Shown here: piece after piece, positions 1 to 26,960 of the stretch
Layout of the letters: every line of letters begins with the position of its first letter
Position numbering within the stretch: the stretch's first letter is position 1
Source: a virus
Reading direction: 5' to 3' (one strand)
DNA: 31,603 nt
IMG/VR virus record: IMGVR_UViG_3300032676_000591
Location: 1-31,603 of that record
Translations under genes and position numbers: made by a program
Notes under the pieces: model-generated
What the model saw: only the letters and a program-made list of their open reading frames with translations
Told to the model about the DNA's origin: nothing
Database searches by the model: none

Positions 1-1262
1 CAAAAATCACAGGTGCTGTGGTTTCTGTGCCGCAGTTTGATCTGGTTCGATATGTTGTAACTGTGGATACAGTGACTACAAGTGGTCCAACGATTGGTGA
101 GTCCGAGTTCAAACAGTTGACAACTGCAGGTGGAACAGAGCAAATTCAAGTGCTTCCAAAAGATGCTGCAAAACCTTTTACGTTGGATTCGATCACACCA
201 GCGACAGCAACGACTAATGGAGATAAAATCATCATTGTTGGAAGTGGTGGTGGTTTTAACGTCCGTATGACGCAATCTGGTGGTTCGGTGGTTATAAGCT
301 CGTCGCTAGCGTCAGGTGCGTTTGTTTTAACCCTTTGGAATAAGTTTACGGCTGGAAGTAACTCGGACAAACTATCGAGCGATCTTTTTAGACGAATGTT
401 AGCCGATAAAGATGCGACACTTTTTGCAAATGATCCTTTAGTTGCAGCGATTCCAGAATGGAATATGAACTGCGTTTTAGGTGATATCGATTTGTCTGGC
501 ATTCCGTTTGCAACGACGCTTTTTGGTGTGTGGTCAGCGGCCAATCGTGGCGCGGCTATAACTAAACGTCACGTGGTTGGCAATCGCCATTGGCAGTATT
601 CATATCCTACGCCGGGTGCAACGTCGGGTGGCTATGCGATTGGACAAAGTTTTAAGTTTTTAGATAAATTTGGCATTGTTCATGAGCGAAAGATTATTGG
701 TGTCGGTTATGCGATGAATGATGTAGTAGTTGCCATGTTGGATTCAGACTTGCCTGACTCGGTAACACCATTACAAATTGCGGGTGATTGGTTTGTTCGC
801 AATGTGGTTCAAGGTGCATCTTCTTGCTCTTGTTTTGTCGGATCGGCGATGTTTTTCATTGATCAATTCGCCAATTGTTGTATTCAGTTGGGGGAAAGTG
901 GACAAAATAACACACAAACTTTTATCGAGAATGGTCATACTTACACGAATAGTATGGATCAAATTCATTTTCGTAATCTCGAATTCTATAGTAGCACTTT
1001 TCCGACGGTTACTTTTACACCTGACACTTTTGCAGGTAAAAAAGACTTGCGTAAGACTGGAATCGTGGGAGATTCTGGAAGTGCTTGTTGCATTTTAAGT
1101 GGAACTACTCCTATTCTTCTCGGCACCATGTGGTATGGTAACGCCTGCACGAACCTTTCGAGTTACAATGGTGCACTTGTGAATGAAGCGATTGTGAACG
1201 TTGATACAAACGCGGGTATTTCCACAGGTTACACAGTGACAATTTTTGCGTCGCCACTTTAA
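1..1262 (+). CDS. Virion/tail protein with trypsin-like serine protease domain (5' end outside window)
   Basis: The reading frame is open to the left edge, so the N-terminus is missing. The first usable start inside the window is GTG at 18, and residue numbers count from there. The C-terminal half carries a recognisable chymotrypsin-fold triad: a histidine in ITKRHVVGN (His185), an aspartate in a hydrophobic strand (Asp235 in MNDVVVAM, or Asp242), and the nucleophile in GDSGSACC (Ser353). The stretch after it (TPILLGTMWYGN) fits the strand that normally follows the serine. Residues 1-110 are Thr/Ser/Gly-rich and look like beta-structured virion protein. There is no signal peptide in the visible part. 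It precedes the lysis genes, so a tail fibre, spike or other distal virion protein that cleaves itself or a surface protein is the likely role. The protease fold is well supported; virion location is inferred. Confidence 0.7.
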   Translation, partial: KITGAVVSVPQFDLVRYVVTVDTVTTSGPTIGESEFKQLTTAGGTEQIQVLPKDAAKPFTLDSITPATATTNGDKIIIVGSGGGFNVRMTQSGGSVVISSSLASGAFVLTLWNKFTAGSNSDKLSSDLFRRMLADKDATLFANDPLVAAIPEWNMNCVLGDIDLSGIPFATTLFGVWSAANRGAAITKRHVVGNRHWQYSYPTPGATSGGYAIGQSFKFLDKFGIVHERKIIGVGYAMNDVVVAMLDSDLPDSVTPLQIAGDWFVRNVVQGASSCSCFVGSAMFFIDQFANCCIQLGESGQNNTQTFIENGHTYTNSMDQIHFRNLEFYSSTFPTVTFTPDTFAGKKDLRKTGIVGDSGSACCILSGTTPILLGTMWYGNACTNLSSYNGALVNEAIVNVDTNAGISTGYTVTIFASPL

Positions 1263-1263
1263 T

Positions 1264-1599
1264 ATGTCTAAAACCGACACAGAACGTCTCGAAGAAGAAA
1301 TGCAAAAACTACCGCGAATTGCTAATTTGTGGGGTTTGCTTGCATATGTTCTCGGGCATAATGGCATTTTTGTCACCGCTTGTATCGTTCTGATCGGTGT
1401 TCAGATTGCTGAAAAACGCGAGTGCGACGTACAGATTTTAGCTGTCCTGACCTCAAACGGACGTATTCTTGCAGATCTTACCAAGTCAGTGTCTGAAAAT
1501 GATCTTCGCGATCAGCGGAGTCTCGAGGATATGAAACCAATAGTCACTCACATTGAATCCGAATTGAGAGATATTAAATCTGAACTACAAAAACGATGA
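1264..1599 (+). CDS. Single-pass membrane protein with C-terminal coiled coil, inner-membrane spanin or holin candidate
   Basis: This 111-residue protein starts at the ATG one base after the stop of the protease gene. An in-frame ATG at 1246 would overlap that gene and is less likely. A charged N-terminus of about 32 residues is followed by one hydrophobic segment (residues 33-49, GIFVTACIVLIGVQIA). The charged, heptad-like tail ends in ELRDIKSELQKR. That layout fits an i-spanin, or a membrane protein that oligomerises through its tail. It overlaps the next gene, a lipoprotein, by four bases (ATGA), which suggests translational coupling and resembles paired i-spanin/o-spanin genes. No sequence family was recognised, and a holin cannot be excluded. 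Confidence 0.6.
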   Translation: MSKTDTERLEEEMQKLPRIANLWGLLAYVLGHNGIFVTACIVLIGVQIAEKRECDVQILAVLTSNGRILADLTKSVSENDLRDQRSLEDMKPIVTHIESELRDIKSELQKR

Positions 1600-1811
1600 A
1601 ACAAAAATTGATGATCCTTCTTGCCGCTGTTGTGACTACGAGTTGTGTTAATTCGACTGATTCGACTACGAAAATTACTACAAAATCTGTCGATCCCGCA
1701 GTGTTGAGTGCGTCACTTGCCATCGGCAAAGTACTCGTTTCGAGTGTGCAAGCACTGATCGAAGCTGAAGTTGCAAAACAAGTGGCAAAGATCAACCCGC
1801 CTGCGAAATGA
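1596..1811 (+). CDS. Small lipoprotein, outer-membrane spanin candidate
   Basis: This 71-residue protein begins with a Lys-containing N-terminus, a hydrophobic stretch (LMILLAAVVTTS) and a cysteine at residue 17 in a lipobox-like context (VTTSC), so it should be exported and lipidated. The mature part is about 55 residues, Ser/Thr/Val/Ala-rich, with a likely amphipathic helix (ALIEAEVAKQVAKI). Its start overlaps the stop of the upstream membrane protein by four bases, and its stop overlaps the next start in the same way. A lipoprotein beside a membrane-anchored coiled-coil protein in a lysis cassette suggests an o-spanin for disrupting the outer membrane of a Gram-negative host. Function is inferred from architecture and position. 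Confidence 0.6.
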   Translation: MKQKLMILLAAVVTTSCVNSTDSTTKITTKSVDPAVLSASLAIGKVLVSSVQALIEAEVAKQVAKINPPAK

Positions 1812-2376: not shown

Positions 2377-2889
2377 ATGACTCTCGAAGAACGAATTGAT
2401 CTCATGCGACACGGTCGCCTGCTTAAGATACTCGACAACGGTTCGATCGTTTTTTGCGTTGACGATGCAATTCGTTTCATCGGGGACATGGACATTGACT
2501 CCGACGGTGGACCAAACGTCGATCACGATCCTTGCTGGCAACCTGACACAACCCTCCACTTCAATGGACACGCAATCAACTCACAGATTGTCCCCTACGT
2601 TGTCGCTCCTATCGGATTGTTCGAGAAGGTTAAAGGCATTGGTCTTGGTTGCAAATGCATCATTACCCATCTTAAAAACAAACTCTCATGCGATGCCGTA
2701 TGCGCAGATCTCGGACCAGCAACCAAAGACGGTGAAGGTTCTGCGGCACTGGCACGGCGACTTGGCGTCAATCCAAACTCACGCACTGGTGGTGAAGACC
2801 GCCCGGTGGTGTTTTACGAACTCTACGTTGGCATTCCGGCAATAATCGACGGCGTGACATATGATCTTCAACCTCTGCATTCGAGATAG
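2377..2889 (+). CDS. GH75 (chitosanase-like) hydrolase, putative endolysin
   Basis: This 170-residue protein resembles glycoside hydrolase family 75. It has the acidic DMDIDSDGGP segment (37-46), then DPCWQPDTTLHF, then VPYVVAP (72-78), then a strand ending in ADLGP (110-114), the DGEGSAALARRLGV helix (118-131) and a closing FYELYVGIPA strand. Asp111 and Glu120 are the likeliest acidic catalytic residues by analogy with the family. Known GH75 enzymes cleave beta-1,4-glucosamine polymers. In a phage lysis cassette, directly after holin- and spanin-like genes, peptidoglycan glycan is the expected substrate. There is no signal peptide, so release would depend on the holin. Four cysteines lie at 27, 53, 92 and 94, with more at 105 and 109. 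Family assignment is by motif recognition and should be tested by a profile search. Confidence 0.65.
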   Translation: MTLEERIDLMRHGRLLKILDNGSIVFCVDDAIRFIGDMDIDSDGGPNVDHDPCWQPDTTLHFNGHAINSQIVPYVVAPIGLFEKVKGIGLGCKCIITHLKNKLSCDAVCADLGPATKDGEGSAALARRLGVNPNSRTGGEDRPVVFYELYVGIPAIIDGVTYDLQPLHSR

Positions 2890-2912: not shown

Positions 2913-4436
2913 ATGGTTTCCGCATTACAACAGATTGAAAGTATCCGTGATTTGAGGCGCTTGGAGCAACTCAAGACGGATTTTGGTCTGTTGTTTTATG
3001 AGCCGCATAAAAAGCAGTGCGAGTTTCACGAGGCTGGGGCGATTAAGCGACGGTATGTGAGGACGGGGAATCGATTTGGAAAGTCTACGATGGGTGCCGC
3101 CGAGGATTGTGCATGGGCGTTGGGAGAACGTCCTTGGTACAAGAAAGGTGATCCTCGACGGCACGTTGGGATTCCGCAGCATAGCACCAAGGGATTGATT
3201 ATTGTCGCTGACTGGGATAAGGTGCACGAAATTTTCACCAATCCTGTAAAGGGTGTCGGTCAAGGGAAGTTGTTCAAGTTTTTGCCGAAGGATAAGATTG
3301 TTAAGTTTAATCGGCATAACTCTGGGATGATCGCGGAGATCACGGTGATGAATATATGGGGCGGTGAGAGTACGATCGTGATGGATACGGTGAAGTCGTA
3401 TCAGGCGAATCCGATGGGACAGGAGAGTTCGGACTGGGATTGGATTCATATTGATGAGCCGTGTCCGAAGGATATGTGGGTGGCGAATAGTCGTGGTTTG
3501 ATTGACAGAAATGGAAGTGCGTGGTTTACGTGCACGCCGATCAATCATCCGTGGATCAATGATATGTTTGTACCGAGAGATCAGTTTCGGTTGAATAGTG
3601 GTGAGGTGATTAAGAAGGACTTGAATCACTGGATGTGTGTTGGGACGTCATTTGATAATCCGTATAATCCGGTCGAGGCGATCGATATGTTTATGGATAA
3701 TCTGACAGACGCGGAGAAAGGGTGTCGAATTCAAGGAATTCCACTCGCGCTTTCTGGGTTAGTTTATAAGGAGTTTCACCCTTCGGACTCGTTGTATAGA
3801 GGGACGCCAAGTGGATGGGAGGGGCCAATGACGCCTCCGGAGAACTATACGATTCGACTCGCAATAGATCCACATCCTCAGGTTCCTCATGCCGTGTTGT
3901 TTGCAGCGACGAGTCCGGAGGGGATTGTGTATTTCTTCGCTGAGATTTTTCGGAAGTTGAGTGCACAGCAGTTGTGTGAAGCGATTCATGAGATTACGGC
4001 GGGTCGTTATGTGCATATTAATCTTTGTGATCCTGCGGCTTATATTCCCTCGAATATAGATCAGAGCGTTATGGCCGACGTTTTAATAGAAGGAGGTGTA
4101 TTCGTTGAAAAGGCCAGTAAGGATTTGAGCCGCGGGATCATTACCACGCAGACTGCATTGAATGAGACGCTCACGAGTCCGTTGGGTGTGAAGTCGCGTA
4201 AGATTTTGTTTGGCGAACATTTGCAAGAGACGAGGTGGGAGTTTGATCATTATACGTGGAATCCCGCGAGGCCGAATAAGCCGATTGATAAGCATGATCA
4301 TATGATGGAGAATTTGTATCGACTTGTGCTTGAGGGGTTAGATTATGTAAAACCTGATTCTGACGCGGAGTATATGTATATTTCGAATGGCGTTCCGCAA
4401 CATAGCAAATTTACTATACCACAAAATGGACGATAG
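2913..4436 (+). CDS. terL: Terminase large subunit
   Basis: This 507-residue protein is the ATP-driven DNA packaging motor with a nuclease that cuts genome concatemers. The ATPase half has a Walker A motif TGNRFGKST (51-59), a Walker B strand ending in IHIDEP (178-183) with the catalytic Glu after Asp, and a coupling motif FTCTP (205-209). The C-terminal RNase H-like nuclease shows LAIDP (Asp319), an acidic strand FFAEIF (Glu344), LCDPAA (Asp373) and a His/Asp-rich end (DKHDHMMEN). Length is typical for TerL. No small terminase subunit is recognisable next to it. The start is ATG 2913, with no Shine-Dalgarno but the palindrome 4 bases upstream. The 3' end overlaps the portal start. Confidence 0.93.
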   Translation: MVSALQQIESIRDLRRLEQLKTDFGLLFYEPHKKQCEFHEAGAIKRRYVRTGNRFGKSTMGAAEDCAWALGERPWYKKGDPRRHVGIPQHSTKGLIIVADWDKVHEIFTNPVKGVGQGKLFKFLPKDKIVKFNRHNSGMIAEITVMNIWGGESTIVMDTVKSYQANPMGQESSDWDWIHIDEPCPKDMWVANSRGLIDRNGSAWFTCTPINHPWINDMFVPRDQFRLNSGEVIKKDLNHWMCVGTSFDNPYNPVEAIDMFMDNLTDAEKGCRIQGIPLALSGLVYKEFHPSDSLYRGTPSGWEGPMTPPENYTIRLAIDPHPQVPHAVLFAATSPEGIVYFFAEIFRKLSAQQLCEAIHEITAGRYVHINLCDPAAYIPSNIDQSVMADVLIEGGVFVEKASKDLSRGIITTQTALNETLTSPLGVKSRKILFGEHLQETRWEFDHYTWNPARPNKPIDKHDHMMENLYRLVLEGLDYVKPDSDAEYMYISNGVPQHSKFTIPQNGR

Positions 4437-10084: not shown

Positions 10085-11230
10085 ATGTCTTTTCAAATTA
10101 ACATCGCACAGAATATCCTCACCCAACAACTCGTCGGTACCCTCATGGGCCCGGTGATGATTGGACAGACTTACGTCGAAGGGCTTCTGACGACGATGAC
10201 GACAATGGAATGGAAAGTGGCAAATGGCTCGCAACTTACACATCCTTTGCCGTATGGAGTTTTTGCGAATATTGAGAATCGTCACAACATGACGCAGTCA
10301 TACCTCGTTGCGCATTTTGCACCGGGATTTTTTGACACGCCCAGCGCACCGGTTTTTAACGAAGTTTGCTGTAAGAAACAAGACATTCATGAGTTTATTT
10401 GCTCAGCAACAGTTTGCAAAAAGGTCGTTCCGATCGCGAGTAATCTCGAGACTGACTCAGGCGGAACAGTGATCTGGTCATGCAATATCGAACCGATCGA
10501 CGAGGTTCACGGATTGATGACGACGATCAAAAATCCCTATCTTCTCGAACAGGAAGGTTCGGTCTGGGATGAAGTGTTGCATCAGTTTATTATCCTCAAG
10601 CGCTTGTTGACGAAAACTTTCGCCGCTTCATCAATAGGCGTCGTCAGTACGACAATGACGTATATTAATTACACACCACTCAAATGTGGTTGGTGGATTA
10701 AAAATACGGAAGTTTTCTCGGGTTTCTCACTTGCATACTCAACCACGATCAACTATGACTGGCCTGCAGTTTTGAAGAAACTCTATGTTGACATTTGGCC
10801 GCTCGTCGAGGGTGGTGCACATGAATTTGGTTTTCCGGTGTATTCAAAACCACATTACTCTGGTCCTTGTAAAGCAGACGTCACTGAAAGTTTCGAGGTC
10901 GGTGCACCGAGTGTGGATATCCCGACTCCAATGCTTCCAAGGTCGATTCAACTTAATTGTCCTTTCTATAACATCACCGAACTACCTTCACTTCACGGTC
11001 GTGGAGCGATCACAACCTACTCTGGCGATGATAGTCCTGTTTGGTTACCGGCATATGCGATCTTTGATGTTCCCGCGACTACGCCAACTGACTGGCCGGA
11101 TTTCGTCATCGACATGACACAGGTGCAACCTTACAAAGGTGGATTTATCAAGAAGAAATATAAGGTCTATCCGCCTGTCGAAGATGCACAACCAACAGCT
11201 TCTAATTGGTCCGGAGTTCTGCCACCATGA
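10085..11230 (+). CDS. Virion structural protein (tail/neck), unknown family
   Basis: This 381-residue, mostly beta-rich protein starts 3 bases after the upstream stop, within TAAGTATG. The N-terminus (SFQINIAQNILTQQLVGTLMGPVMIGQTYVEG) is followed by aromatic and Asn/Thr-rich segments, with Cys residues clustered near 95-115 (EVCCKKQDIHEFICSATVCKK). The C-terminus is Pro-rich. The ATGA overlap with the next gene implies coupled expression. Within this operon of virion genes it is probably a tail component, but no domain can be named. Confidence 0.6.
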   Translation: MSFQINIAQNILTQQLVGTLMGPVMIGQTYVEGLLTTMTTMEWKVANGSQLTHPLPYGVFANIENRHNMTQSYLVAHFAPGFFDTPSAPVFNEVCCKKQDIHEFICSATVCKKVVPIASNLETDSGGTVIWSCNIEPIDEVHGLMTTIKNPYLLEQEGSVWDEVLHQFIILKRLLTKTFAASSIGVVSTTMTYINYTPLKCGWWIKNTEVFSGFSLAYSTTINYDWPAVLKKLYVDIWPLVEGGAHEFGFPVYSKPHYSGPCKADVTESFEVGAPSVDIPTPMLPRSIQLNCPFYNITELPSLHGRGAITTYSGDDSPVWLPAYAIFDVPATTPTDWPDFVIDMTQVQPYKGGFIKKKYKVYPPVEDAQPTASNWSGVLPP

Positions 11231-12096
11231 TCAAACCAGATCATAATCGTCCGTTTGTCTCACGACTCGATGAAAGTCCATTCATCGAACACAAAGATTT
11301 GTCGCTTAGTCAGCCTGTGACACACAAGCAACAGGCGATGAACATTCCTTGCTTGGTAAATCCAAACTTCGTTGCACCACCGCGAATCCCGCAAAGTTAT
11401 AAACCTTTCTCCTTTGCACTTGCCGCTGGGCCCGCAGGTAAGATGCACGTTTATTATGGACAGTTGATTCAACTCGTCACATTCCCAAACTTCAAACGTA
11501 ACATTGTCAACGCAGTTCATTTCAACGTCCTTGCATCGCAAGACGAAATTCAACAACCTGTGATTTGGGTGCCTGACAATCTTCGCACAGATCATGGATT
11601 CTTACGCGCAACACTTCTTAACTGGCGTGGTAACGCTTATCTCTACTGGGAAACCAACGCAAATGGAGTAATCACACTTTGCCGTATTGTTGGTCCTGAC
11701 GTTCCGACACTTAAAAATATTCCTGAACTCAATTCAGACCTCATTCGCGATTGGGGCGAAGATGAACCAGTCGGAAAATACTGTGCATTTATTGGTTCAG
11801 TTTCAGACTCAGGCGAGATTACACAAAAGATTTCCTCCGACTACTTCTGGTCGCCTTGTGTCATCCCCGAAGGTTCTGATGGTACAACGATCACCACAGA
11901 CGGTGGTTATGGTGGTGTCGCAATCGTCGGTGGCACTGGTAAAATTACAGTCACAATTTACGATACTGACACTATCTACATTCTCTCCGAATGGCATAAC
12001 GGTATCGAAACCATAAACAACTGGACAAATCTCACCTTTAACACACTCGCTGGTGGAGGCAAACTCATCTCCATCGATTCTCACGGATTTCCTTAA
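11227..12096 (+). CDS. Virion structural protein, unknown family
   Basis: This 289-residue protein is started at ATG 11227, whose ATGA overlaps the upstream stop; an upstream in-frame GTG/ATG at 11206 would overlap more. The N-terminal 60 residues are Pro/His-rich. A beta-rich core follows, with a Gly-rich segment near the C-terminus (TTDGGYGGVAIVGGTGKITV) that reads like a small beta-sandwich. Position suggests a tail or fibre-associated protein. It lies wholly in the C-rich arm before skew-switch site 3, which explains its heavy use of C-ending codons. Confidence 0.6.
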   Translation: MIKPDHNRPFVSRLDESPFIEHKDLSLSQPVTHKQQAMNIPCLVNPNFVAPPRIPQSYKPFSFALAAGPAGKMHVYYGQLIQLVTFPNFKRNIVNAVHFNVLASQDEIQQPVIWVPDNLRTDHGFLRATLLNWRGNAYLYWETNANGVITLCRIVGPDVPTLKNIPELNSDLIRDWGEDEPVGKYCAFIGSVSDSGEITQKISSDYFWSPCVIPEGSDGTTITTDGGYGGVAIVGGTGKITVTIYDTDTIYILSEWHNGIETINNWTNLTFNTLAGGGKLISIDSHGFP

Positions 12097-13843: not shown

Positions 13844-16800
13844 ATGGACACCTATCAAGATTTTCTAAAACAGAATCCTGTGGATGAGTTTAACTCGCCG
13901 CGGCAGATTCAACAAGACTTTGTGGACAATATCCGCAAGGCTGATCCACGTTTTAGTGACTTGACAGAAGGGCAGACTGGTCAGGTGTTGGCGCAGTTGA
14001 CCGGAGAGCAGGGGTTTAATAGATTTTCGGCTGGTGCGTTGAATCGTGGGTTTGATTGGTTAGGTGATAAGTTTACGAATACGCTTAACGAATTGCCTGT
14101 CGGTGGTGGTCTGACTGCGAGTCAATATGCTGGTGAAGGAGCACAAGGATTTGCGCAAATTTTTGGTGCTGGAGAGGATACACAACAAGCGTTTAAGAGT
14201 GGTGGTGAGCAATTGCCAACGATTATCGGGATGCTTGGGTTGGGCGGTGTTGGAAGTGTGATTGGTGGTATTGCTGGTGCGATTGGTGGTATTGGAAGTG
14301 TGATTGGTGGTATTGCTAGTGCAGGTATGACTGGTTTGATGGGTGCGACTATGTACGGACAAGGCGTAGGTAGCGCATATGAACAAGGCGCTACTGGACT
14401 TGCGCCGACTGCAGTTGGTGCAACGAGTTTGGCGACACTTGCGATTCCGATGGTGTTCAGTCGTGCGATTGCTGATGTTGCGGGGACTGCAGCGTTGAAA
14501 CTTACTGCGAGTGGTGCGTTGAAGGATTTGACTGCAGAAGCGGTTAAGGATGGAGTGAAGTTCAGTGGATCAGAGGCGGTGAATTTGATCACTGGGAATC
14601 CTGCAGTGTCGACTTTGCGCCGAAGTGCGTTGAAGACGGTGCAGGAAAGCATTGCAATGAGCACGGCGAGTGCATTGAGTATTTCTAGTGCGGTTGCTGG
14701 GCAGTTGATCATTAATCCGAAGAAGTTTGTTGAAGATCAGTTGACGAGTAAGCAGTTCTGGATTCCGACGTTGATTGGTGAAACTTTCAACGGTGTGGGT
14801 GGTGTGATGATGGGGAGGATGCGGGAACCAGTTAAGAGTTATAAGACACTGACTGAAGAACAGGCAGCACTGAAAGCAAAGTTGCATGGTAGTGAGCAAG
14901 CGAGTGCCGAGGAAGGTGCAAAGTCACTTGTGGGGATTTTGCCGGATAAGACTGCGGGGACGGAACCTTCATTGACTGTTCCGTTAGATGAGACGATGTA
15001 TCCGGAAAGTATTTACAGTTCGAAGATTAAGAAGCAACTTGGAATTCCTGCAGGTCCTGAAAGCGATCAGGCATTACTTTCGCATTATAGTGCGATTCGT
15101 CAAGCAAATGCGGAAGCGATTGTTGCGGAGACAAATAAGGCGTCTACTGATACACCTGAAAGTCCTGCGGTTAAAGATCGTGTGATTAACACTCCAGACG
15201 AAGCGTACGCTGCGATTGCTGATGTAATGGCAGCGCATGATCCGTCGAGTGATCAGTTGAACATGCTTGGAATGGCAGTGCAACATCTGCAAGAAGCGAT
15301 GGAAAGTACGCATCCAGAAGTGTCGACAGATGAAGCATTCATGCATGCAGTAGAGGAGATTCACGCGCGTGCTTATGATCCTAACGTGCAGAATTATGAG
15401 CATATTGTCACGACGGATGATGGAAATCATATTGCGTTTCATAATCCCGGGACGAAGGAAGTTGGGACGTTTGTTCAAGTGATGCGGACAGGAGAGGATG
15501 GCAAAGTTCATCCTGTGGGTAAGCAATTCATTGAAAACGTTCCCGGCACGGCGACGATTTTGCGCCTGCATGACGTGTTACAGCTTGCGAAACTTGACGC
15601 GCCAGCGTTGAAACCTGCACTAGACAAACACTTTGGAGTTGATGTGACGCCGAAGGAACTTGAAGTTTTTCATCGTGTCTTTCAGCGGACTGCACAAGCG
15701 GAAGCCGAGATGCCGTATGGCGTGAGTTTTCATGAAGATTATCATGCTCAAGATCCGAGGCGAGCTGCTGGGATTGCTGAGATGTTGCATCGGACGGGGA
15801 TGCAGAAGGCGCTAGTTGCGCTTAAGCAGAAGTTACGTTTTACTGCGAGTTCTGCATGCCTTGATCCAAAGGCGTTAGATAACGCGACGTTTGATTATTT
15901 TGGCGCGAAGAATATTGCGGCGCATTCGTTGGTTGAGAATACGAATGGTGAACTCGTGCACGTGATTTCACGTAACAATACGTATGGTCCTGATGTGGAT
16001 ATTCATGAATTAGGACACGTGTTGCATGTGCTTATCGACTCAGGTGGTTATGGGAAAGAGATGAAGGCTGAGGTCGATAAGTGGCTTGGTGACATTATTA
16101 ACCCAGATAGCGAGTGGAATAAGGGGAAGGAACGTGGTAAGCAACGAGCGGAAGATGTTAAGCACGCTGCAGAAACCGGCGCGACGATTGCGTCAAAGGT
16201 TCAGGCAGGAACTAAACGCGCACAAGGTTTGCCAGATACAGAAGAGATTCGTCAGCATTACTTGTCATACTATGAAACATTCGCGCAAACCTTTCATGGC
16301 TATATGATGTCTGCTGGGAATAAGTTCTCAGACTTTATGGCAAAACACTTTCCGACTTTGCATGGATTCTTTTCGGAGTATGCAAAAGCTTTTAAGACTG
16401 GTGGACCGCTTAATCGTTACTCGCCGGGTTATAGTGTTGGCAAGTCGATTTTGAAAACCTACCTCGATGCACATTATGATGCAACTGAAGCACCTGCGAA
16501 ACGTCTGCATGCACTCATGGATGCGACACCGGGAATGTCTTCTCGAGTTGCAGAAGCGTTAGTTCACGAGTGGTTTCAAGCGAAAGGTGTTGGTATTCGT
16601 GATGCACTCGAGACGACGGTCAAGCAGTTGAAAGAGACTGGCGAAGGTGTGAGTGATTCTTCTGTGATCGATTTGCTTTCGAGCATCGGACGCGTGAACG
16701 GAGAAACGAATATGTTCTCTCCAATGGAAGGTTACGATGGACAGTTAAATTCCAAGGCGTTTATTCTTGCACCTTGGATTAGCCATCTTGTCGGTGAAAC

Positions 16801-19800
16801 ACATCTCGGTTGGGATAAGATGCTGAGTGCTGCGAAGGAACTTGCGGCAAAAACAGGTAAACCTTTCAAGAGTGAAAAGTGGTTTAACTCGCACACACTT
16901 GCAACAGAACTTGGATTCAAACCCGGCACACCACGTCACGCAGAAGCGCAATCCTATCTCAATGGACGGTGCTTCATTATGAAGAACATTGAACGTCTTC
17001 AACGCGTGGTTGATGTAATTTTGAATCCTGCGGAAACTGAGCGATATACGCAGGCCGACGTGTTAAAGCAGATTTATAAACTCGATGGAGTTTTACGTGA
17101 CTGGTATCTGGGTCGCTTGGATTACCAGAAAGGTAAGCCAATGTACGAGCCGACTTGGGACAAACTTAGTTCGTCTGTCGAAGCTGGTCGTCAACATACA
17201 ATCGAACTTCCAGAACGCGAGGCTGCGTTTGTTGAAAAATCACATAAGTCTTGGTTCCCAGACCTCACCGATGCGTTGATGAAACGCGTGAAGAACACTG
17301 CGAAACCACCAAAATCTCACCTTGACATTGATGGTAATTTTGACTTCGAGACAAAGCAACGCGAGTCAGGTACGAAACGTCCTGAGTTGAAGTCTTTCTC
17401 ATCTGAGCAAGAAGCTCGAGATTATGTTGACTCGATTCAAAACTCGAGTAAGTACGCGATGGTCGAACTTTCGACTGAGCATTATACCAAGCGTACAGTT
17501 GCAAAAACTCGCGAAGAAAAACTTGTTGCACAAGGTAAATACAAACTCACCGATGCGTGGCGTATCGTTGCAAAAGACACAACGAATCGCCTTCGTCTCG
17601 CCTCCGAAGATTCCACTTGGCGCGCTTCAAAACAAGCGTTCGAGGCTGCTGCGTTTGAACAAGCGCCCGAGCATGTGCAAGAATCGCAGTCCGAACTCGA
17701 GTCCATCGCCGCTCCACGTCCACAGCCTACGAAAGAAAAGCGGGTCGTCGCTCAGTTGTCACCTGAAAGTGCAAAACAATTTTGGGCCGAACTTGAAAAA
17801 ACTGGTGCTCCTGCACTTCACAAACTTCGTGACATAGTTCCGAATCACGTGGAGAAAGCTCTGCAAGACATCCTCGCAGGCACAGATCAACCACATACGA
17901 ACGTCAATGAATTTGCGACGTTGAAAAAGCATTTTCTTGGAATGCTCGAGTGGCGTAAGGCGAATCCGGGCATCTTCAACGATCTCTTACATGAACACGG
18001 TGTTGATCTATTGCCTACGCAAAATGGTCTAATCACGATGGTCAAGGCATATGTTAATTCGTTGCACACCTTCACGCCTGATCTTAACGCAAAACAAATC
18101 CAATCTGAACACCTTCGCAATCTCAGTAAGATGATCGCGTTTGGTGAAGACGTCGCCAACGCAAGTAACAAACCAAGCGCAGCATACGATCCTGACACTG
18201 TAACAAACTTCTACAAGTCTCTCACAAACTATGTGAAAGATTTGCAGTCTCAATATCTCAACGAAAGTGCTGCTGACACTGGTCGCGGTATGATTCCGCA
18301 AGTCACACCTTCCGAGCAAGGTCGTCAAGCTGGCACGACAGCATTCGCAACACCACTTTCTAATCCAACAGTCCAAGCAAACGTCGCAGCTGTTCTCAAC
18401 ACACAAGAAGGCAACCTCGGACGTCCACATGACGTCGCACATGAACGTAGTGCGATCGGAAAGATCTTCGGAGCCGTCCTAGGTAAACCACTCAGTGTCG
18501 CACAAAAAATCCACTCCGCAATCGGCCAAGGCCCGCTACAACGAGCCGTGCAAGATCCAAACTTTTATTGGGCTTCTAAAGCATTCTACGACGAAACTGT
18601 TAATGTCTCCGGTAACACAACAGGTGCACTCAAGCATTTGCACTGCGCAGGCAAACTAGTCTCGCAACTCGAACTCATACCGCCCGATGAACGTGCAAAT
18701 CTAAAACCCGAGGAAATTGCACACCTTGAAGCGCTTCCAAAGATTTTCAAACTCGACGAAGGTGACAGCATGGATCCAAACCGTACTGTCCGTACAATGT
18801 TAGCGAACCCTCGTCTGCGTGACATCTTCAATCGCATTGGACTTCTGGAGAACCAAGGTTCAGACTTCTATGAAAACATAATCAACAAACCTCTTGATCC
18901 GAACGACGAAATTTCGGTTAGTGCTTATGCGTACAAGAAAGAACTCTCAAACCCAAAAGAGGCAGCACTCATGGAAGAATGCCTTAAGCGTTTTTACGCC
19001 TCTCACAAGTACTCGGTCCAAGTCCAAACTGTTCAAAGCATGCGAAACTTCATTGCTTCGCATGCCACCTCACTAATCTCTCGTCCCGAGTTCGGCAACT
19101 CCGCCGAAAAAGCGATGGATTTTGCTACACGCTTCAACGCTGCCAGCACTCCAGATCGTCTACAATTACTCGTTAAGGAGCTTAACAAGACTCCGAGAGA
19201 GATGACGAATGCGCAACAGGCAAAGATGACTGAGGAGGAGTTTCACCAGTCGCAGAGTACGACGATGACGTTGGATGATGCGGAGAGATTGCTTAAGCCG
19301 TATATGGAAGCGGAGCAAGGGGTGTTGAAGCAGAATCAGATGCTGTTACACAATTCGTTTTATACGAGTGAGGTGCGGTATGGTGCGTGGCATGTGAGGG
19401 TGGTGTTTAAGGAGGATGGGAGAATGCCAGCGAGTAAGACGGAACGGATGGGGTATTATGGGTTTAATTCGTTGGAGGAGGCACAGAAGTTTGCTGCGGA
19501 ACAGCGGGTACTTGGAAATACTTCAGGCACGCCGTGGGACTTTGGACGGGCGAAGCGTAATTATCGTGAGATTAATGGGACGTATGAAGATGCGTTGAAT
19601 GATGTTACGAAGACGACGCGAGTGATGTTGGAGTTGTTTTTAGAAGGGAAAGGGTTGGATGAAGAGACGTTGAATACTGTATCGAATGCTATTGGTGACT
19701 TGCCTGATAAGGTGACAATGCAGAATGAGGCAGTGAAGATTAATTCGTTGACTGCTAGAAAGCGTTCGTTTACGAAAGGGCGGGAAGAATTGGATCGGTT

Positions 19801-21850
19801 TGAACAGCATTTGGAAAGCGTTCGGCGTCGTCTTGCGGCGAGTGGACGTAAGGAGACTGATATTAAGTTCAAACTTTACTCGCGGGATAAAGGGACGCTT
19901 GCGAATAATGATTTGTATGAAAAGTTGGATGAGTTCAAATCTGGCATGCGTTTGAAGGATAGTGAGTATCAGAAGCAGATTGGGATGCTTGGGTATAATG
20001 CGTGTATGTTGGGGAACTTGTCTTCGGGGATTATGGAAATGCAGCAGGGTCCGATTATTACTGCGGCGAGTTTGATGGCTCATGGTGGGAGTTTGAAGGA
20101 TGCGTTTTTGGTTCCGACGCAAGTGGTGAAGTATGCGTATCAGTCTGCGATGAAGCGGTTAGTGAGAGGGGATCAGACTAGCGTTTGGGATAATCCTGAA
20201 GAGCGTGCATTCATTCGTGATGCGGTGAATAAGAATAGGCTGGCACAGAGATTGCATCATGATATTGATCAAACGAGCACGGATCGTGTGATGGAGCAGT
20301 ATCGAAATCTTGATGGGTTTGAGGATCAGACGACGAAGGATAAGATTAAATCTGTTGGACAGCATGTGTTCAATGGGTTGAATAATATGTATGGAGCGAT
20401 GAATCGTTTCAACATGGAGGTGTCGTTGATCTCGCATTATAGACTGTTGAGGAAATTGCAGTATGGGAACGTGCCGACGATGACTGCGGAGCAGATGCAG
20501 ACGAACGGGCATCCGCAGTTTACTAAACGCCAGTTTGCCGAACTTTCCAACAAGGTAATGATGGCCAGTGACATGGCGAATGGTACGTTGCAGAGGTTGG
20601 GAAGACCTGAGTTTTTCAATACGAAATCAGAGATGCTGCGGAATGCAGCGAGTACGTATTGGAGTTTGCAGAGTTTTGTGAATGCGCAGGTCGCGAATCA
20701 GTTACTCTATATGAGTAAGGCGTTGAACGCGAAGGGGATTTACTCGAGGTCGGAGAGTATCGCAGCGAGAAAAGCGATGGCGACGTTGCTTGGAATGCAA
20801 TTTCTCGCGATGGGAACGGCAGGATTTACTTTGTGGCCTAGTGCGAACAAGGCAATTAAACTCGCGACTGGGTTTGATCCGGAGGAAGAAATGCGTGATG
20901 CGTTTTTGTCGAATAAGAATTGGAGTGACAGTGACCGTCAATTCATGGCAGATTTTGCTGCGAATGGATTAGCGACTGCGGCAGGTGTTCCGATTGATTA
21001 TGGAACTCGTTTGAGCGTACAGGGTTTAGGTCCAATGAGTCCGTATGCTGGGTTTGATGCGAAACAACTTGGTGGGCCGGTCATCGGTTTGGTCACGCAG
21101 GCGATGAGTGATTTGAAGAAGGTGCAGGAAGGAACGTTGGGTATTGGCGAAGCTGTTACACTCAATATGCTGCCTGTTGGACTTCGTCGTGGTTTGCGCA
21201 TGGAGATGTTCGATCATGGTGATATCTATGATGGAAATAAGAAGTTCATGTTCACACCAACCGCAGTTGAACGTGTTGGTATGTGGACTGGATTTAACAC
21301 TGTCCGTGCGCGTGAGGAAATGGAAGCGCGGATGAAGAGTACGGAGGCGATTGACGCTGGTGCGAGGTTGAAGATGACACGTGCAAATGCGGTGATTGAT
21401 GCGCAAGCGAGTGGGAATTTGCCCGAGGCCATGCGGATCATGCGGCAGACGGCGACTGACTTTCAAGAGAAGGTTCCAGCCTTTGCAAAGTATGTCGCAG
21501 AGTTGAAGGTGTCGAAAGATATGGGACAACTCGTACGCGAGGGAAGTGGTCCAGAAGCTGATCGAGTCGCACGTTTGTATCAGACTTTGAATCCACCGCA
21601 GGAGATGTTACGGAAAGCAAAAACTGATAACTACATGCAACAACTTGGTGTACCAGTGGTTCCAAACTTCCAAGCCTACCGACATGCGGCAGCGTTTGAC
21701 TCGATAATGCAAAACAACCCCGGAATTACTTCCGGAGCTGCGTCTAAGATGTTGTCCGATCCAATGCGGCGCGGAACGATATATGGAGCACTTGATCCTA
21801 ACTCTGCAACTGAAGCATTTCAGTCGAATTTCCCATCAGTAGCTTGGTGA
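13844..21850 (+). CDS. Giant internal virion/ejection protein with zinc-metallopeptidase motifs
   Basis: This 2668-residue protein is by far the largest gene. A Gly/Ile-rich hydrophobic stretch (about 127-175) could insert in membranes. Two HExxH motifs, HEDYH (630-634) and HELGH in DIHELGHVLH (721-725), suggest zinc-peptidase activity; the second has the better helix context. From about residue 1970 the sequence is helical and Ala/Met/Asn-rich (LGYNACMLGNLSSGIMEM, ASTYWSLQSFVNAQVANQ), resembling the C-terminal regions of phage large polyvalent or ejection proteins. T7- or N4-type RNA polymerase motifs were not seen. It ends the structural operon and overlaps the convergent ATPase gene by 53 bases. 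The likely role is ejection with the DNA, with cell-wall or membrane passage. Codon use changes abruptly at 19172. Confidence 0.75.
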   Translation: MDTYQDFLKQNPVDEFNSPRQIQQDFVDNIRKADPRFSDLTEGQTGQVLAQLTGEQGFNRFSAGALNRGFDWLGDKFTNTLNELPVGGGLTASQYAGEGAQGFAQIFGAGEDTQQAFKSGGEQLPTIIGMLGLGGVGSVIGGIAGAIGGIGSVIGGIASAGMTGLMGATMYGQGVGSAYEQGATGLAPTAVGATSLATLAIPMVFSRAIADVAGTAALKLTASGALKDLTAEAVKDGVKFSGSEAVNLITGNPAVSTLRRSALKTVQESIAMSTASALSISSAVAGQLIINPKKFVEDQLTSKQFWIPTLIGETFNGVGGVMMGRMREPVKSYKTLTEEQAALKAKLHGSEQASAEEGAKSLVGILPDKTAGTEPSLTVPLDETMYPESIYSSKIKKQLGIPAGPESDQALLSHYSAIRQANAEAIVAETNKASTDTPESPAVKDRVINTPDEAYAAIADVMAAHDPSSDQLNMLGMAVQHLQEAMESTHPEVSTDEAFMHAVEEIHARAYDPNVQNYEHIVTTDDGNHIAFHNPGTKEVGTFVQVMRTGEDGKVHPVGKQFIENVPGTATILRLHDVLQLAKLDAPALKPALDKHFGVDVTPKELEVFHRVFQRTAQAEAEMPYGVSFHEDYHAQDPRRAAGIAEMLHRTGMQKALVALKQKLRFTASSACLDPKALDNATFDYFGAKNIAAHSLVENTNGELVHVISRNNTYGPDVDIHELGHVLHVLIDSGGYGKEMKAEVDKWLGDIINPDSEWNKGKERGKQRAEDVKHAAETGATIASKVQAGTKRAQGLPDTEEIRQHYLSYYETFAQTFHGYMMSAGNKFSDFMAKHFPTLHGFFSEYAKAFKTGGPLNRYSPGYSVGKSILKTYLDAHYDATEAPAKRLHALMDATPGMSSRVAEALVHEWFQAKGVGIRDALETTVKQLKETGEGVSDSSVIDLLSSIGRVNGETNMFSPMEGYDGQLNSKAFILAPWISHLVGETHLGWDKMLSAAKELAAKTGKPFKSEKWFNSHTLATELGFKPGTPRHAEAQSYLNGRCFIMKNIERLQRVVDVILNPAETERYTQADVLKQIYKLDGVLRDWYLGRLDYQKGKPMYEPTWDKLSSSVEAGRQHTIELPEREAAFVEKSHKSWFPDLTDALMKRVKNTAKPPKSHLDIDGNFDFETKQRESGTKRPELKSFSSEQEARDYVDSIQNSSKYAMVELSTEHYTKRTVAKTREEKLVAQGKYKLTDAWRIVAKDTTNRLRLASEDSTWRASKQAFEAAAFEQAPEHVQESQSELESIAAPRPQPTKEKRVVAQLSPESAKQFWAELEKTGAPALHKLRDIVPNHVEKALQDILAGTDQPHTNVNEFATLKKHFLGMLEWRKANPGIFNDLLHEHGVDLLPTQNGLITMVKAYVNSLHTFTPDLNAKQIQSEHLRNLSKMIAFGEDVANASNKPSAAYDPDTVTNFYKSLTNYVKDLQSQYLNESAADTGRGMIPQVTPSEQGRQAGTTAFATPLSNPTVQANVAAVLNTQEGNLGRPHDVAHERSAIGKIFGAVLGKPLSVAQKIHSAIGQGPLQRAVQDPNFYWASKAFYDETVNVSGNTTGALKHLHCAGKLVSQLELIPPDERANLKPEEIAHLEALPKIFKLDEGDSMDPNRTVRTMLANPRLRDIFNRIGLLENQGSDFYENIINKPLDPNDEISVSAYAYKKELSNPKEAALMEECLKRFYASHKYSVQVQTVQSMRNFIASHATSLISRPEFGNSAEKAMDFATRFNAASTPDRLQLLVKELNKTPREMTNAQQAKMTEEEFHQSQSTTMTLDDAERLLKPYMEAEQGVLKQNQMLLHNSFYTSEVRYGAWHVRVVFKEDGRMPASKTERMGYYGFNSLEEAQKFAAEQRVLGNTSGTPWDFGRAKRNYREINGTYEDALNDVTKTTRVMLELFLEGKGLDEETLNTVSNAIGDLPDKVTMQNEAVKINSLTARKRSFTKGREELDRFEQHLESVRRRLAASGRKETDIKFKLYSRDKGTLANNDLYEKLDEFKSGMRLKDSEYQKQIGMLGYNACMLGNLSSGIMEMQQGPIITAASLMAHGGSLKDAFLVPTQVVKYAYQSAMKRLVRGDQTSVWDNPEERAFIRDAVNKNRLAQRLHHDIDQTSTDRVMEQYRNLDGFEDQTTKDKIKSVGQHVFNGLNNMYGAMNRFNMEVSLISHYRLLRKLQYGNVPTMTAEQMQTNGHPQFTKRQFAELSNKVMMASDMANGTLQRLGRPEFFNTKSEMLRNAASTYWSLQSFVNAQVANQLLYMSKALNAKGIYSRSESIAARKAMATLLGMQFLAMGTAGFTLWPSANKAIKLATGFDPEEEMRDAFLSNKNWSDSDRQFMADFAANGLATAAGVPIDYGTRLSVQGLGPMSPYAGFDAKQLGGPVIGLVTQAMSDLKKVQEGTLGIGEAVTLNMLPVGLRRGLRMEMFDHGDIYDGNKKFMFTPTAVERVGMWTGFNTVRAREEMEARMKSTEAIDAGARLKMTRANAVIDAQASGNLPEAMRIMRQTATDFQEKVPAFAKYVAELKVSKDMGQLVREGSGPEADRVARLYQTLNPPQEMLRKAKTDNYMQQLGVPVVPNFQAYRHAAAFDSIMQNNPGITSGAASKMLSDPMRRGTIYGALDPNSATEAFQSNFPSVAW
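14251..14322 (+). repeat. Near-perfect 30-bp direct repeat, period 42 bp
   Basis: The 30 bases at 14251-14280 recur at 14293-14322 with one mismatch. They encode Gly-Ser-Val-Ile-Gly-Gly-Ile-Ala twice within the Gly-rich hydrophobic segment of the giant protein, with a third partial unit between. The expansion lengthens the putative membrane-active stretch. Confidence 0.9.
19172..19186 (+). repeat. Skew-switch palindrome, site 4 (GTTAAGGAGCTTAAC)
   Basis: This copy is inside the giant ORF, in frame as Val-Lys-Glu-Leu-Asn at residues 1777-1781. Hand counts give about 51 G to 77 C in 18901-19170 and about 115 G to 43 C in 19191-19500, the clearest demonstration that the switch occurs within one uninterrupted coding sequence. 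The centre is GAG, one base from consensus. Confidence 0.85.
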
Positions 21851-23817: not shown

Positions 23818-24233
23818 GGTGCTTTGTAGTTATTGGCCCAGAGTTCTGTGAAATATTCTTGAAGTGCTTTTGCTTGAGAGGGTGACACTTTGTACATGAG
23901 TTCGTGAAGAGTCATTGCGGTGGCGTTAGCAGAGCCGATGAAGACGTCGGGGATGGCAGAGTGTTTGGGATAGGCCAGCCAGAGTTTCATGTGGGTGGCG
24001 GTGACACGGCAGGAGAGTGCTGCGCGTGGTGGAATGCCTTCGACGTAGATTACGCGGCGGAGGTTTGTGACGTGAGGAGAGACGGAGTAGGTGACAACGT
24101 CGAGGTGATCGTAGCGACAGATTGCGTGGATGAAGTTGGTGGAGTCGTAGAAGCCATTGGGAAGCCAGCAATCTGTAAGATTGATGGGTGGTGGAGTGAC
24201 GATGTGATTGAGGGATGGGAAGTCGTGTTTCAT
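23814..24233 (-). CDS. Phospholipase D-fold (HKD) miniprotein, putative nuclease
   Basis: This 139-residue protein has an HKD-type signature of the phospholipase D superfamily: HMK (His81, Lys83), then Asp96 leading into VFIGSANAT (97-105), matching the H-x-K ... D ... G-S-x-N pattern. The preceding half has the expected strands (HLDVVTYSVSP, RRVIYVEGIPP). Single-HKD proteins of this size act as dimers, and many are nucleases. No signal peptide is present, so a role on DNA or RNA inside the cell is more likely than a lipase. It is locked between polymerase and ligase by four-base overlaps, which suggests a role in replication, recombination or nick processing. The HKD call is good; substrate unknown. 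Confidence 0.65.
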   Translation of the reverse strand: MKHDFPSLNHIVTPPPINLTDCWLPNGFYDSTNFIHAICRYDHLDVVTYSVSPHVTNLRRVIYVEGIPPRAALSCRVTATHMKLWLAYPKHSAIPDVFIGSANATAMTLHELMYKVSPSQAKALQEYFTELWANNYKAP

Positions 24234-26758
24234 ATTGGATTAGAAGTGTTGCCCCATGAATCGCCGTAAGCGCCTTCGAATGGAATGTTTATGAGTTGAC
24301 CGGAGATGAGGATTTTGTCAGAGAAGTAAGTACGTAGTTTTTGAATCGCCCAATCACGAGTCTCCAATGGCCATTGTCCGCACATCGCGTCATGTACATG
24401 GTGAAGTGGTTCGATGATGAGGGAATTGTTTGGCCGACGATTCTCAGGATCGTACCAGAGGTTGCGAAGGGCACGGTTCGTTGCATAGGTGGTGTTTGCC
24501 TGAGGTTCATGGGCGACGGCGGATCGGAGAGTTTCGTGTGACGCACGACGCCCGAAGAATGTTCGAGTGTGACCAGAAGCGCATTGAAGTTTTCCTTTCG
24601 TTCGTAACTCTTGCTCGACCCAAGTCTGCCAAGCAGCGACTCCCTTATAGCGAAGTCGGTAAAGTTTTTGTAAAGCCATGCATGTCTTGTTGTCGGCATA
24701 AATTGGATTGCCGGTAAGTTTGAATGAATCTTTGAGGATTTGATCTGCCATGGTAGATGGTCCCAGCAGATAATTTGTCCCATGTTGTACTCGTTTGCAG
24801 ATGAAATACAACGCAGCAACTTCATTCGTGTTAAGTGGGGACTGGTCATTGCCTATGTATTTTGAGACTTTGTAGAGTTCTTCGCGCGAGAGACGGAGGG
24901 CCTCCACTCCGTGAAGATAGAGGTAGGCGATGACTCGAGCGGGTTTGATGCCGTATAGGTAATCGTCCAACATGGTTCGGTCGCCAAACTTGGCACAGTG
25001 TGCAGCAACTGTCCAACCATCCGCGCCAGCAAGGTCAAGCTGAAAGAATTCGCATCCCGGATCAGCTCGGAATAGATGGCGTAACTTTTTGGTGACAGTT
25101 GTAAGATTCGATCCAACGTCTTTTTCTTCACCTTTCTTATCGAGGACGTCAGAGTTTTCAGCGGAGTGCTGACAGTTAAGCCGCCCGGTGTCGGTCCCGA
25201 CAATATTGTAAGAGCAACGGACCCGTCGATCTCGACTTGAAGTTGGCATAGCGAGGGTCTGCATGAGTTTTTCGCATTTGCGCCACGAGATGAGGTCGCG
25301 AATAAGGGCTGCATCGTGAATCCGATTAATTTCAAGCAAGGCGTCGATGTTCGTGGTGAGTTTTGTTTTGTCGATACGGCCACCTTTTTTGGGATGTTGT
25401 TTCGGGAAGTGCTTTTCTTTATAGAGGACATTGCATAGTTGGGTTGGAGAGTTTACATTAACTTTTTTGCCGCATTCCAAGTTGATACGAAGTTGGATTT
25501 CATCTTGCTTGATTTTAGTGAAGTTATAAAGTTCGTCAGCTCGCGCTTTATCAAAGACCATTCCGCGCAGTTGCATGTAGTTGATCGCGGGGAGGAGTGA
25601 CATGTTGAACTTAAAATGTTCAAGAGCGTTTCCGGACATTGCCGTAAGATGCCGTTCTGCGATTTCGTAGGTAACGCAGGAGTCGGTGCAACAGTAGGTC
25701 CAGTGGGTGACAGTGTCGTCGACTTTTCGTTGGAACTTGTAGTAAGGTTCACGAGTCCAGATGGTAGTTTGAGTACCTAGTCCCTTGGGTAACTCTGAGT
25801 ATATTTCCCATCCTGAAACCATCGTATCCATAATAATGTTGGCAAGGTGGATGTGATATCGGTACGCGAGAACAAAGTAGTCATAAATACAGTTTTGTAA
25901 GATTTTAGGCAGATCATCACGAGCCATCGTGATACGAAGTTGTTCGATTACTAGTGCGTCCTCGGCGGGTGTGAACACTCCAAAAGGAATAATAAAAGCG
26001 TGATGAGGATCAGTTGCAATGGAAAGACATGAGATCCATGAGACATATCCTTCAATGTCCAAGGCAATAGGAATCCCAGCAGGCAGATTACGCAGACGAT
26101 CAATAATCTGATAAGCGGAAAGATGGAGTTCATAGTGACGCTCGGGGAGGTTAAGTTCAGGAAAGGTTGACTCTTCGGCAGCGCGAGATAAATCGAAACG
26201 GAGCAAAGGCATCCATTCATACATGCGGAGTACATTCTCCATGTCGTATGTTGGAATGCACTTGAAACCCACGCAAGGCGATCCGATGGTGTTTGAACGG
26301 AAGAGTGATCCGTGCCAGTTAGAGACAGACTCACCGCGTTTGCCAGACATCCAAAGCGGAACGTCGCCTGCGAGGACGATGATGTTCGGTTTGAAAAGCT
26401 GCAAATCTTGCTTGAGCTGATCGCACGAATCGACGACTTCCGGATCACTCCATGGAAAGAGAGTGGCGTCTTTCATCTTCACCTTGCCGTTGTACTTGCG
26501 TTGTACGCAAGAGACGTTCGCATACATCACGGACATTGGTGAGATGCCAGCGGAAGAAAGAACGTTCCGCATGATCTGTCCAGACGTTCCGACGAACGGA
26601 CGAGATTCAGCGAGTTCTTGTTCGTTTGGACAGTCTCCAATCACTGCCACGCGCATAGGCGAGTCGATGCCGGGAAACTCGGTTTGAACTCTACGCCGAT
26701 CCTTTGGGACGGTGGAGATTGCGTTGAGATCAAAGAGTGCTGGAGTCAGTTGGGACAT
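24230..26758 (-). CDS. UDG-like / 3'-5' exonuclease / family A DNA polymerase fusion
   Basis: This 842-residue protein starts at ATG 26758 (MSQLTPALF); an upstream ATG at 26884 would overlap another gene widely. Residues about 36-190 resemble family 4 uracil-DNA glycosylase (GDCPNEQE 41-48, PFVG 54-57), but the usual C-terminal His motif reads TYDMENVL, so activity is doubtful. The exonuclease is intact: LDIEG (Asp234, Glu236), NCIYD (Asp293) and CTDSC (Asp359). The polymerase has TGRLN (524-528), motif A FFQLDLAGAD (Asp575), a divergent motif B KRVQHGTNY (655-663) and motif C VHDAM (His789, Asp790), where the usual Glu is Ala. It is the probable replicative polymerase. Its 3' end overlaps the PLD-like gene (ATGA). 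Confidence 0.87.
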   Translation of the reverse strand: MSQLTPALFDLNAISTVPKDRRRVQTEFPGIDSPMRVAVIGDCPNEQELAESRPFVGTSGQIMRNVLSSAGISPMSVMYANVSCVQRKYNGKVKMKDATLFPWSDPEVVDSCDQLKQDLQLFKPNIIVLAGDVPLWMSGKRGESVSNWHGSLFRSNTIGSPCVGFKCIPTYDMENVLRMYEWMPLLRFDLSRAAEESTFPELNLPERHYELHLSAYQIIDRLRNLPAGIPIALDIEGYVSWISCLSIATDPHHAFIIPFGVFTPAEDALVIEQLRITMARDDLPKILQNCIYDYFVLAYRYHIHLANIIMDTMVSGWEIYSELPKGLGTQTTIWTREPYYKFQRKVDDTVTHWTYCCTDSCVTYEIAERHLTAMSGNALEHFKFNMSLLPAINYMQLRGMVFDKARADELYNFTKIKQDEIQLRINLECGKKVNVNSPTQLCNVLYKEKHFPKQHPKKGGRIDKTKLTTNIDALLEINRIHDAALIRDLISWRKCEKLMQTLAMPTSSRDRRVRCSYNIVGTDTGRLNCQHSAENSDVLDKKGEEKDVGSNLTTVTKKLRHLFRADPGCEFFQLDLAGADGWTVAAHCAKFGDRTMLDDYLYGIKPARVIAYLYLHGVEALRLSREELYKVSKYIGNDQSPLNTNEVAALYFICKRVQHGTNYLLGPSTMADQILKDSFKLTGNPIYADNKTCMALQKLYRLRYKGVAAWQTWVEQELRTKGKLQCASGHTRTFFGRRASHETLRSAVAHEPQANTTYATNRALRNLWYDPENRRPNNSLIIEPLHHVHDAMCGQWPLETRDWAIQKLRTYFSDKILISGQLINIPFEGAYGDSWGNTSNPI

Positions 26759-26960
26759 CGTTGAGAGAGAAGTTAAAGTGTTTTTTGAGGAGTTGTTTAA
26801 CACCAGCATGTGACTTGTACTTCGACGTAGGATTACTCCACGTGCGACGATAGTCACCAGCGTCTCGCGCCTTATAATATTCATCGAGACGTCTGTATAT
26901 CCGCTTGCATTTACGCAGGCGACGTTGGGATAATCCTGTTGGTGTGGTTTCGTTTTGCAT
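26730..26960 (-). CDS. Small basic protein, unknown function
   Basis: This 76-residue protein starts at ATG 26960 (MQNETTPTGL), 4 bases after the upstream stop; an in-frame ATG at 27005 would overlap the upstream gene by 41 bases. It is strongly basic and helical (RRLRKCKRIYRRLDEYYK, KQLLKKHFNF), suggesting nucleic-acid binding. Its 3' end overlaps the polymerase start by 29 bases, implying coupled translation. No family recognised. Confidence 0.55.
   Translation of the reverse strand: MQNETTPTGLSQRRLRKCKRIYRRLDEYYKARDAGDYRRTWSNPTSKYKSHAGVKQLLKKHFNFSLNDVPTDSSTL

Follow-up and report, generated by a model that had tools for sequence, protein, structure and literature searches.

A predicted trypsin-fold protease domain in a putative phage tail protein, and its family in uncultured viruses and Verrucomicrobiota

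Our analysis of IMG/VR virus record IMGVR_UViG_3300032676_000591 indicates that the first protein encoded there ends in a domain which, judging from the predicted structure, almost certainly adopts the trypsin fold (residues 136-412), and profile comparison places this protein in a large family of viral and bacterial proteins that was previously without annotation. From the conservation of its active site, the domain is very probably an active serine endoprotease, and the protein that carries it is probably a component of the virion. As a reading for which we see about equal weight on either side, we propose a C-terminal trypsin-fold endoprotease of a phage tail protein that would cut a host surface protein at adsorption. 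The window here means the whole stretch of 31,603 nucleotides that was analysed.

Results

Layout of the gene and its neighbours

The protease-bearing ORF (window:3-1262, plus strand) is open at the first base of the contig, and its true N-terminus lies outside it. The features of this gene and of those that follow are:

3..1262 (+): protease-bearing protein ORF, 419 residues readable, 5'-truncated, stop at 1260-1262; from the ORF reading and family membership
3..347 (+): N-terminal beta-rich, putatively Ig-like region, residues 1-115; from the secondary structure of the model
360..398 (+): linker helix, residues 120-132, preceding the protease in the model; its FxxGS....H region is aligned in the family
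408..1238 (+): predicted trypsin-fold serine protease domain, residues 136-412; from the profile match, the model, Foldseek and VIA
1264..1599 (+): gene downstream, coding for a small protein with a membrane-like segment, without a Pfam match that reaches cut-off
1596..1811 (+): small lipoprotein-like ORF in a spanin-like position, as its sequence suggests
2377..2889 (+): putative endolysin; GH75 PF07335 at E=0.0016 and 19.1 bits, below the cut-off of 27
2913..4436 (+): terminase large subunit; phrog_2 at E=3.4e-8

The original prediction had located a protease domain at 530-1262; the domain is present but starts earlier, near nt 408 (residue 136). Its placement of a GDSGS motif in the protein just before the lysis genes agrees with the motif at nt 1068-1082 and with a lysis-type cassette from 1264, which the gene at 1264-1599 appears to open. 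The product of 2377-2889 is perhaps an unusual, GH75 chitosanase-like endolysin, to judge from its weak domain match. The putative Ig-like region gave weak BIG2-type matches when the model was used for structure searches.

Several other genes of the window have unusual features. A family A DNA polymerase (E=2.1e-17) is fused to an N-terminal uracil-DNA-glycosylase domain (E=1.6e-8) at 24230-26884 (-), and an N6/N4 DNA methyltransferase to a ParB N-terminal domain at 27137-28627 (-). The structural genes are followed by a 2668-residue protein (13844-21850, +) with no Pfam family and three chance-level rows, which is a candidate internal virion or ejection protein.

Library searches and recovery of relatives

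With the window protein as query, neither Pfam (E up to 5) nor PHROGs (E up to 0.1) gave a family, PF00089 and PF13365 did not match, and a plain sequence search of IMG/VR returned nothing useful. A PF00089 search of the whole record gave none, with a control matching in 11 of 14 genomes. We attribute to chance the PDB sequence rows at E ~0.3 (a methyltransferase subunit), those in NCBIfam (E 0.03-0.1) and the matches to two Klebsiella phage records among 50,697 GenBank phages (E=7). For the protease domain of the family members tried, too, no model of Pfam, PHROGs or NCBIfam exceeded its cut-off, the best member reaching E=0.008 and 17.3 bits against PF13365 (cut-off 27.6).

The terminase (2913-4436) served as query for syntenic contigs. 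In one of these (L004 among our locus labels), the corresponding slot, followed by two small ORFs and the terminase, is occupied by an ORF of 346 residues that is cut at its 5' end and has both GDSGSP and a His block; it aligned weakly with the window protein (E=0.005 in a single comparison). Two further loci with GDSG near a terminase (L045, L096) were glycine-rich or beta-helix-like, lacked the His block and were rejected. A two-row alignment (A1) used as query returned no relatives in viral or genome contigs.

Both the GDSGS motif (nt 1068-1082) and an acidic block, NDVVVAMLDSD, are present in the window ORF. On its own the GDSGS motif is suggestive only, and GDSG[SGN] appeared by chance in 1007 of 200,000 shuffles of the window protein. 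A loose His..Asp..GDSG signature appeared in 28 of 200,000 such shuffles and in none of the 942 ORFs of at least 200 aa from the loci fetched by then; it was dropped as a classifier, since it misses the true relative L004, whose motifs differ slightly.

The His block of L004 resembles [ST]PxHxxxxxH[YWF]xPx[ILV]G, which we take to be a motif of unannotated phage proteins. Scanning IMG/VR with it as a DNA pattern returned 27 stretches, the L004 contig included, with 23 in open frames and four by chance. G[DN]SG follows 123-175 residues downstream in 19 of the 23; three others (L103, L111, L112) have no G[DN]SG in the piece read, and L113 has lost its GDSG. Used as a profile, four pattern-found members led to 28 viral loci and three genome loci, the latter from one Puniceicoccaceae and two Planctomycetota MAGs.

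Membership of the window protein was assessed with profiles that left it out. A 10-member profile without the window and L004 matched them at E=1.9e-14 and 3e-21, the alignment behind it having included both. A 31-member profile, aligned without either, gave E=4e-22 (77.5 bits) for the window and 7.9e-23 for L004 among 6459 ORFs, followed by a fragment of L103 (0.043), probably itself a family member, and an unrelated ORF (0.21); the best reversed-ORF decoy scored 0.039. Because its E value lies far below the decoys, the profile comparison identifies the window protein as a true but distant member of the family.

Predicted fold

AlphaFold, given the window protein and 32 relatives (33 rows), returned a model with pLDDT 78 and pTM 0.77, in which pLDDT exceeds 85 for the greater part of residues 141-260 and for much of 351-412, and residues 298-339 are uncertain; on a two-row alignment the pLDDT was 28. 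The model has the two-beta-barrel chymotrypsin fold of S1 / clan PA. A Foldseek search of the PDB gave 77 matches at E<=0.001, and the best 50 of these are all trypsin-fold proteins, mainly coagulation-type S1 proteases, with HGF and the Umb1 particle also among them. VIA alignment, a second look at Foldseek's own list, matched model residues 137-408 to thrombin over 209 residues (Z 16.8, rmsd 3.4).

The original prediction had named structure prediction as its check and a wide separation of the three catalytic residues as the outcome that would speak against it. The model gives no sign of such a separation as far as its alignment with thrombin shows, residues 136-412 matching at Z about 16. 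Homology (E=4e-22), the predicted trypsin fold and the conservation of the triad agree on the trypsin-like protease domain that had been claimed.

Active site

Conservation was read from 45 non-redundant members that cover the core, obtained from 77 profile hits that were reduced to 46 at 90% identity and from which the partial L144 was dropped. The positions concerned are:

570..572 (+): H190 (chymotrypsin position 51; earlier His185), 42/45 members; starts a strand in the model
588..590 (+): H196, predicted catalytic His (His57), 45/45; aligns with 'LITPNHVLTAAH' of chymotrypsinogen C; helical turn 195-197
720..722 (+): D240, predicted catalytic Asp (Asp102), 45/45
1068..1082 (+): GDSGS with S358 (nt 1074-1076; predicted nucleophile, Ser195), 45/45, and the oxyanion G356, 44/45

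Of the columns filled in 36 or more of the 45 rows, H196, D240 and S358 alone show no variation at all. Since both rounds of search patterns contain both histidines, H190 and H196 owe part of their conservation to the way members were selected; D240 and S358 occur in no search pattern.

The triad first suggested was His185, Asp235 or Asp242, and Ser353, in a numbering based on a GTG reading of 414 residues that corresponds to our H190, D240, D247 and S358. Asp235 and Ser353 were borne out, whereas the catalytic His is predicted six residues further on, at H196, and the alternative Asp242 was discarded, as this position is D in only 32 of 45 members. Three members that keep H196 (L162, L156, L161) have Leu, Gln or Cys in place of H190. 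Furthermore, the family profile stretch 'gtlItPrHvigarH' aligns with 'GTLITPNHVLTAAH' of chymotrypsinogen C (a weak PDB row, E 0.98), and the second His of this chymotrypsinogen C stretch is the catalytic His57. H190 was rejected as the catalytic His owing to its loss in 3/45 members and to this alignment, which points to H196; though conserved, it is probably not catalytic. The triad is thus predicted to be H196-D240-S358 (191, 235 and 353 in the earlier numbering), because of its invariance, the chymotrypsinogen C alignment and the position of H196 in a helical turn as opposed to the strand of H190.

With G356 and D357 conserved in 44/45 members, the family has a GDSG motif with the equivalents of oxyanion Gly193 and Asp194, the latter present in the window as well. 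Zymogens of chymotrypsin-subtype S1 proteases are activated when a new N-terminus (Ile16) pairs with Asp194; no site for such activation was identified. Position 361 is Ala in the window versus the usual Pro (38/45), which, like the long branch of the window in the tree, counts against the reading proposed here. The residue aligned with specificity position 189, which we infer to be its structural equivalent, takes 14 different letters in the 45 members.

Taken from sequence conservation, the domain is very probably catalytic. A silent trypsin fold used for binding only, as in UmbA of Streptomyces umbrella toxins, would fit the Umb1 chains among the top Foldseek matches and the minus-strand copy L113:11459-12709, in which the triad letters are kept and the GDSG context is lost, G and D both being aligned with Thr; that copy is perhaps decaying or binding-only. 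For the family we consider such a role very improbable, because the triad (45/45) and the oxyanion glycine (44/45) are conserved, which speaks for strong purifying selection on catalysis. UmbA (PDB 8w20) shares the trypsin fold and is part of a large bacterial particle with spokes; its trypsin-like domain binds UmbB and is without catalytic activity (PMC11062931), in contrast to the invariant triad found here.

Distribution and phylogeny

At E<=1e-8 the family profile matched 26 of 240 sampled Verrucomicrobiota genomes (the phylum of L152), 12 of them below 1e-40, and 3 of 199 Planctomycetota genomes (the phylum of L153), the latter including two seeds; the weaker genome matches may be ordinary S1 proteases. 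Among 50,697 GenBank phage records, tblastn with the window, L004, L121, L118, L131, L114, L100 and L151 as queries found one credible relative (MW202510). The original statement that such proteases are uncommon in phage tails consequently holds for annotated phages (1/50,697 records) and less so for metagenomic viruses.

In the tree the window grouped with L151 and L004 (support 99/94). We regard this grouping as weak evidence, because the window (branch length 3.06, among the longest in the tree) and L004 both sit on long branches. Viral and cellular rows are mixed, with seven label changes as drawn and two forced by well-supported branches, which suggests gene exchange between hosts and phages. 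Cellular-looking, secreted-looking relatives occur in Verrucomicrobiota (L157, L160, L163, L166). From the distribution of the family and the mixing of host and phage rows, we infer that the phage of the window infects a Verrucomicrobiota-type bacterium. Some viruses carry two family protease genes close together (L126:7965-9185 and 10487-11797; L147/L148; L111).

Protein architecture and virion context

Of 31 viral members, 27 have a protease match that ends at most 35 residues from the C-terminus, and 21 have at least 100 residues ahead of it. These preceding regions include a sub-cut-off Big_2 match in L118 and DUF285 in L097, L100 and L101. L161, a bacterial-genome row, has a collagen-type tail-fibre stalk on the same polypeptide as the protease, and L135 shows a weak laminin-G-like stretch after it.

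A PHROG scan of the neighbours at ten loci found tail fibre, collar or structural genes beside L145, L151 and L125 and a tail protein beside L131; L150 adjoins portal and major head protein genes, L152 precedes the tape measure, the tape-measure match at L141 is weak, and L142, L148 and L135 have no tail-type neighbour. The gene in MW202510, the sole GenBank phage that has it, lies downstream of structural genes and upstream of an FN3 protein. Four Verrucomicrobiota regions (L161, L162, L164, L165), picked for phage-like architecture from 14 'cell' rows, all have a major head protein within about 7 kb, one a portal and one a tape measure.

Two things therefore back the idea of a phage tail or virion protein: the gene precedes the lysis cassette and the terminase, and several relatives lie near genes for a tail fibre, tape measure, portal or capsid. 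Against it, the window protein has no visible anchor and lacks its N-terminus, so that a virion role cannot be read from the window gene itself. On balance the window protease is probably a virion component.

A protease exported by the infected or lysogenic cell, secreted or on the cell surface, would instead have as its targets the proteins around it, competitors or the envelope of the producing cell. By eye and hydropathy score, signal-peptide-like N-termini were noted in L132, L134, L135, L161, L162, L163 and L166, and these fit export better than assembly into virions, for which such leaders are odd, virion proteins being assembled in the cytoplasm. Members that seem to be cellular and have lipoprotein-type leaders or a TSP3-like repeat point the same way, as do the members in 26/240 Verrucomicrobiota genomes (12 below 1e-40). 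However, many viral members start without a hydrophobic leader (L121, L148, L151, L126, L107, L104 and L114 among others), and several members adjoin tail fibre genes; we consider secretion unlikely, though an alternative to be taken seriously. Signal-like leaders were also seen on tail-type proteins of Verrucomicrobiota prophage-like regions (L161, L162, L165 and neighbours in L170-L172).

Discussion

We propose that the ORF is the C-terminal part of a tail protein of fibre or tip type, whose last ~275 residues would form a catalytically competent trypsin/chymotrypsin-fold endoprotease, with H196-D240-S358 as its triad and G356 in the oxyanion hole. Carried on the virion, the protease would at adsorption nick or strip host protein, be it a surface layer, a pilus or an adhesin, in parallel to the depolymerases on other tails that strip polysaccharide. 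A host surface protein as the substrate is an even call. That different phages cut different host proteins would fit the family, because specificity position 189 varies and the triad never does.

Both this role and maturation of the protein itself had been suggested at the outset, and digestion of the host surface is favoured here. In maturation, the protease would act while the virion is assembled, cleaving the protein that carries it or another virion protein next to it. Autoproteolytic modules at the C-termini of tail proteins are known and act as intramolecular chaperones, and the trypsin fold is able to cleave itself. However, the domain occurs in one contig besides the window among the terminase-fetched loci, many of which are cut before the slot. 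L008, a close terminase relative, has at this place (1142-2890), upstream of the lysis genes, an unrelated protein with chitobiase C-terminal/Fn3-associated domains, which would fit a slot for host contact whose content varies. Because of this near-absence and the different occupant in L008, and with a specificity position that varies widely, we regard maturation as rather unlikely.

The fold and catalytic chemistry of the family are already known. Its predicted double beta-barrel, His-Asp-Ser order, GDSG, oxyanion Gly and LITPxHVxxAxH block are those of S1 clan PA (PF00089, PF13365). It differs in having an aromatic residue after the catalytic His, not the Cys of AAHC, and in flanks of its own, RNxxCWAxDxDLT before and GYxLTxxDLSxF after, with the motif outline RNxxCWA..ITPRH.....H. 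The closest predicted viral structure in BFVD is A0A6J7XEP5, an uncharacterized protein of an uncultured Caudovirales phage (E=1.7e-15, TM 0.55/0.52), with 16% identity to the window over 495 columns.

Neither the family nor its tail context or spread among uncultured phages seems to have been described in the libraries and papers that we searched. The open-access literature yielded no description of trypsin-fold proteases of this kind in phage tail proteins, which leaves their absence from print unproven; a 'trypsin-like serine protease' is named among the shared genes of one alphaproteobacterial phage cluster in PMC10783043. As long as library models are lacking, such genes remain 'hypothetical' in annotated phages, for example in MW202510.

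Known phage-tail enzymes mostly attack sugars or peptidoglycan, and the tail-borne depolymerases are polysaccharide-degrading tailspikes. Like these, members of the family would sit as enzymes on the exposed tip of a tail protein and could be swapped between related phages; unlike them, they have a protease fold and not that of a glycosidase or lyase. Exchangeable tail-end proteases would, if this is true, be the protein-cutting counterpart of polysaccharide depolymerases. More tentatively, and a little short of an even chance, phages of Verrucomicrobiota-type bacteria may carry a diversified set of such proteases, with a pocket that varies by phage and a family shared with secreted proteases of their hosts. 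If tail-associated and widespread, the trypsin-fold family would suggest hosts whose outer barrier consists of protein, and it would supply a large natural collection of proteases in which a single triad is invariant and specificities are many. It would also provide a handle on the host range of uncultured phages (26/240 Verrucomicrobiota versus 3/199 Planctomycetota genomes).
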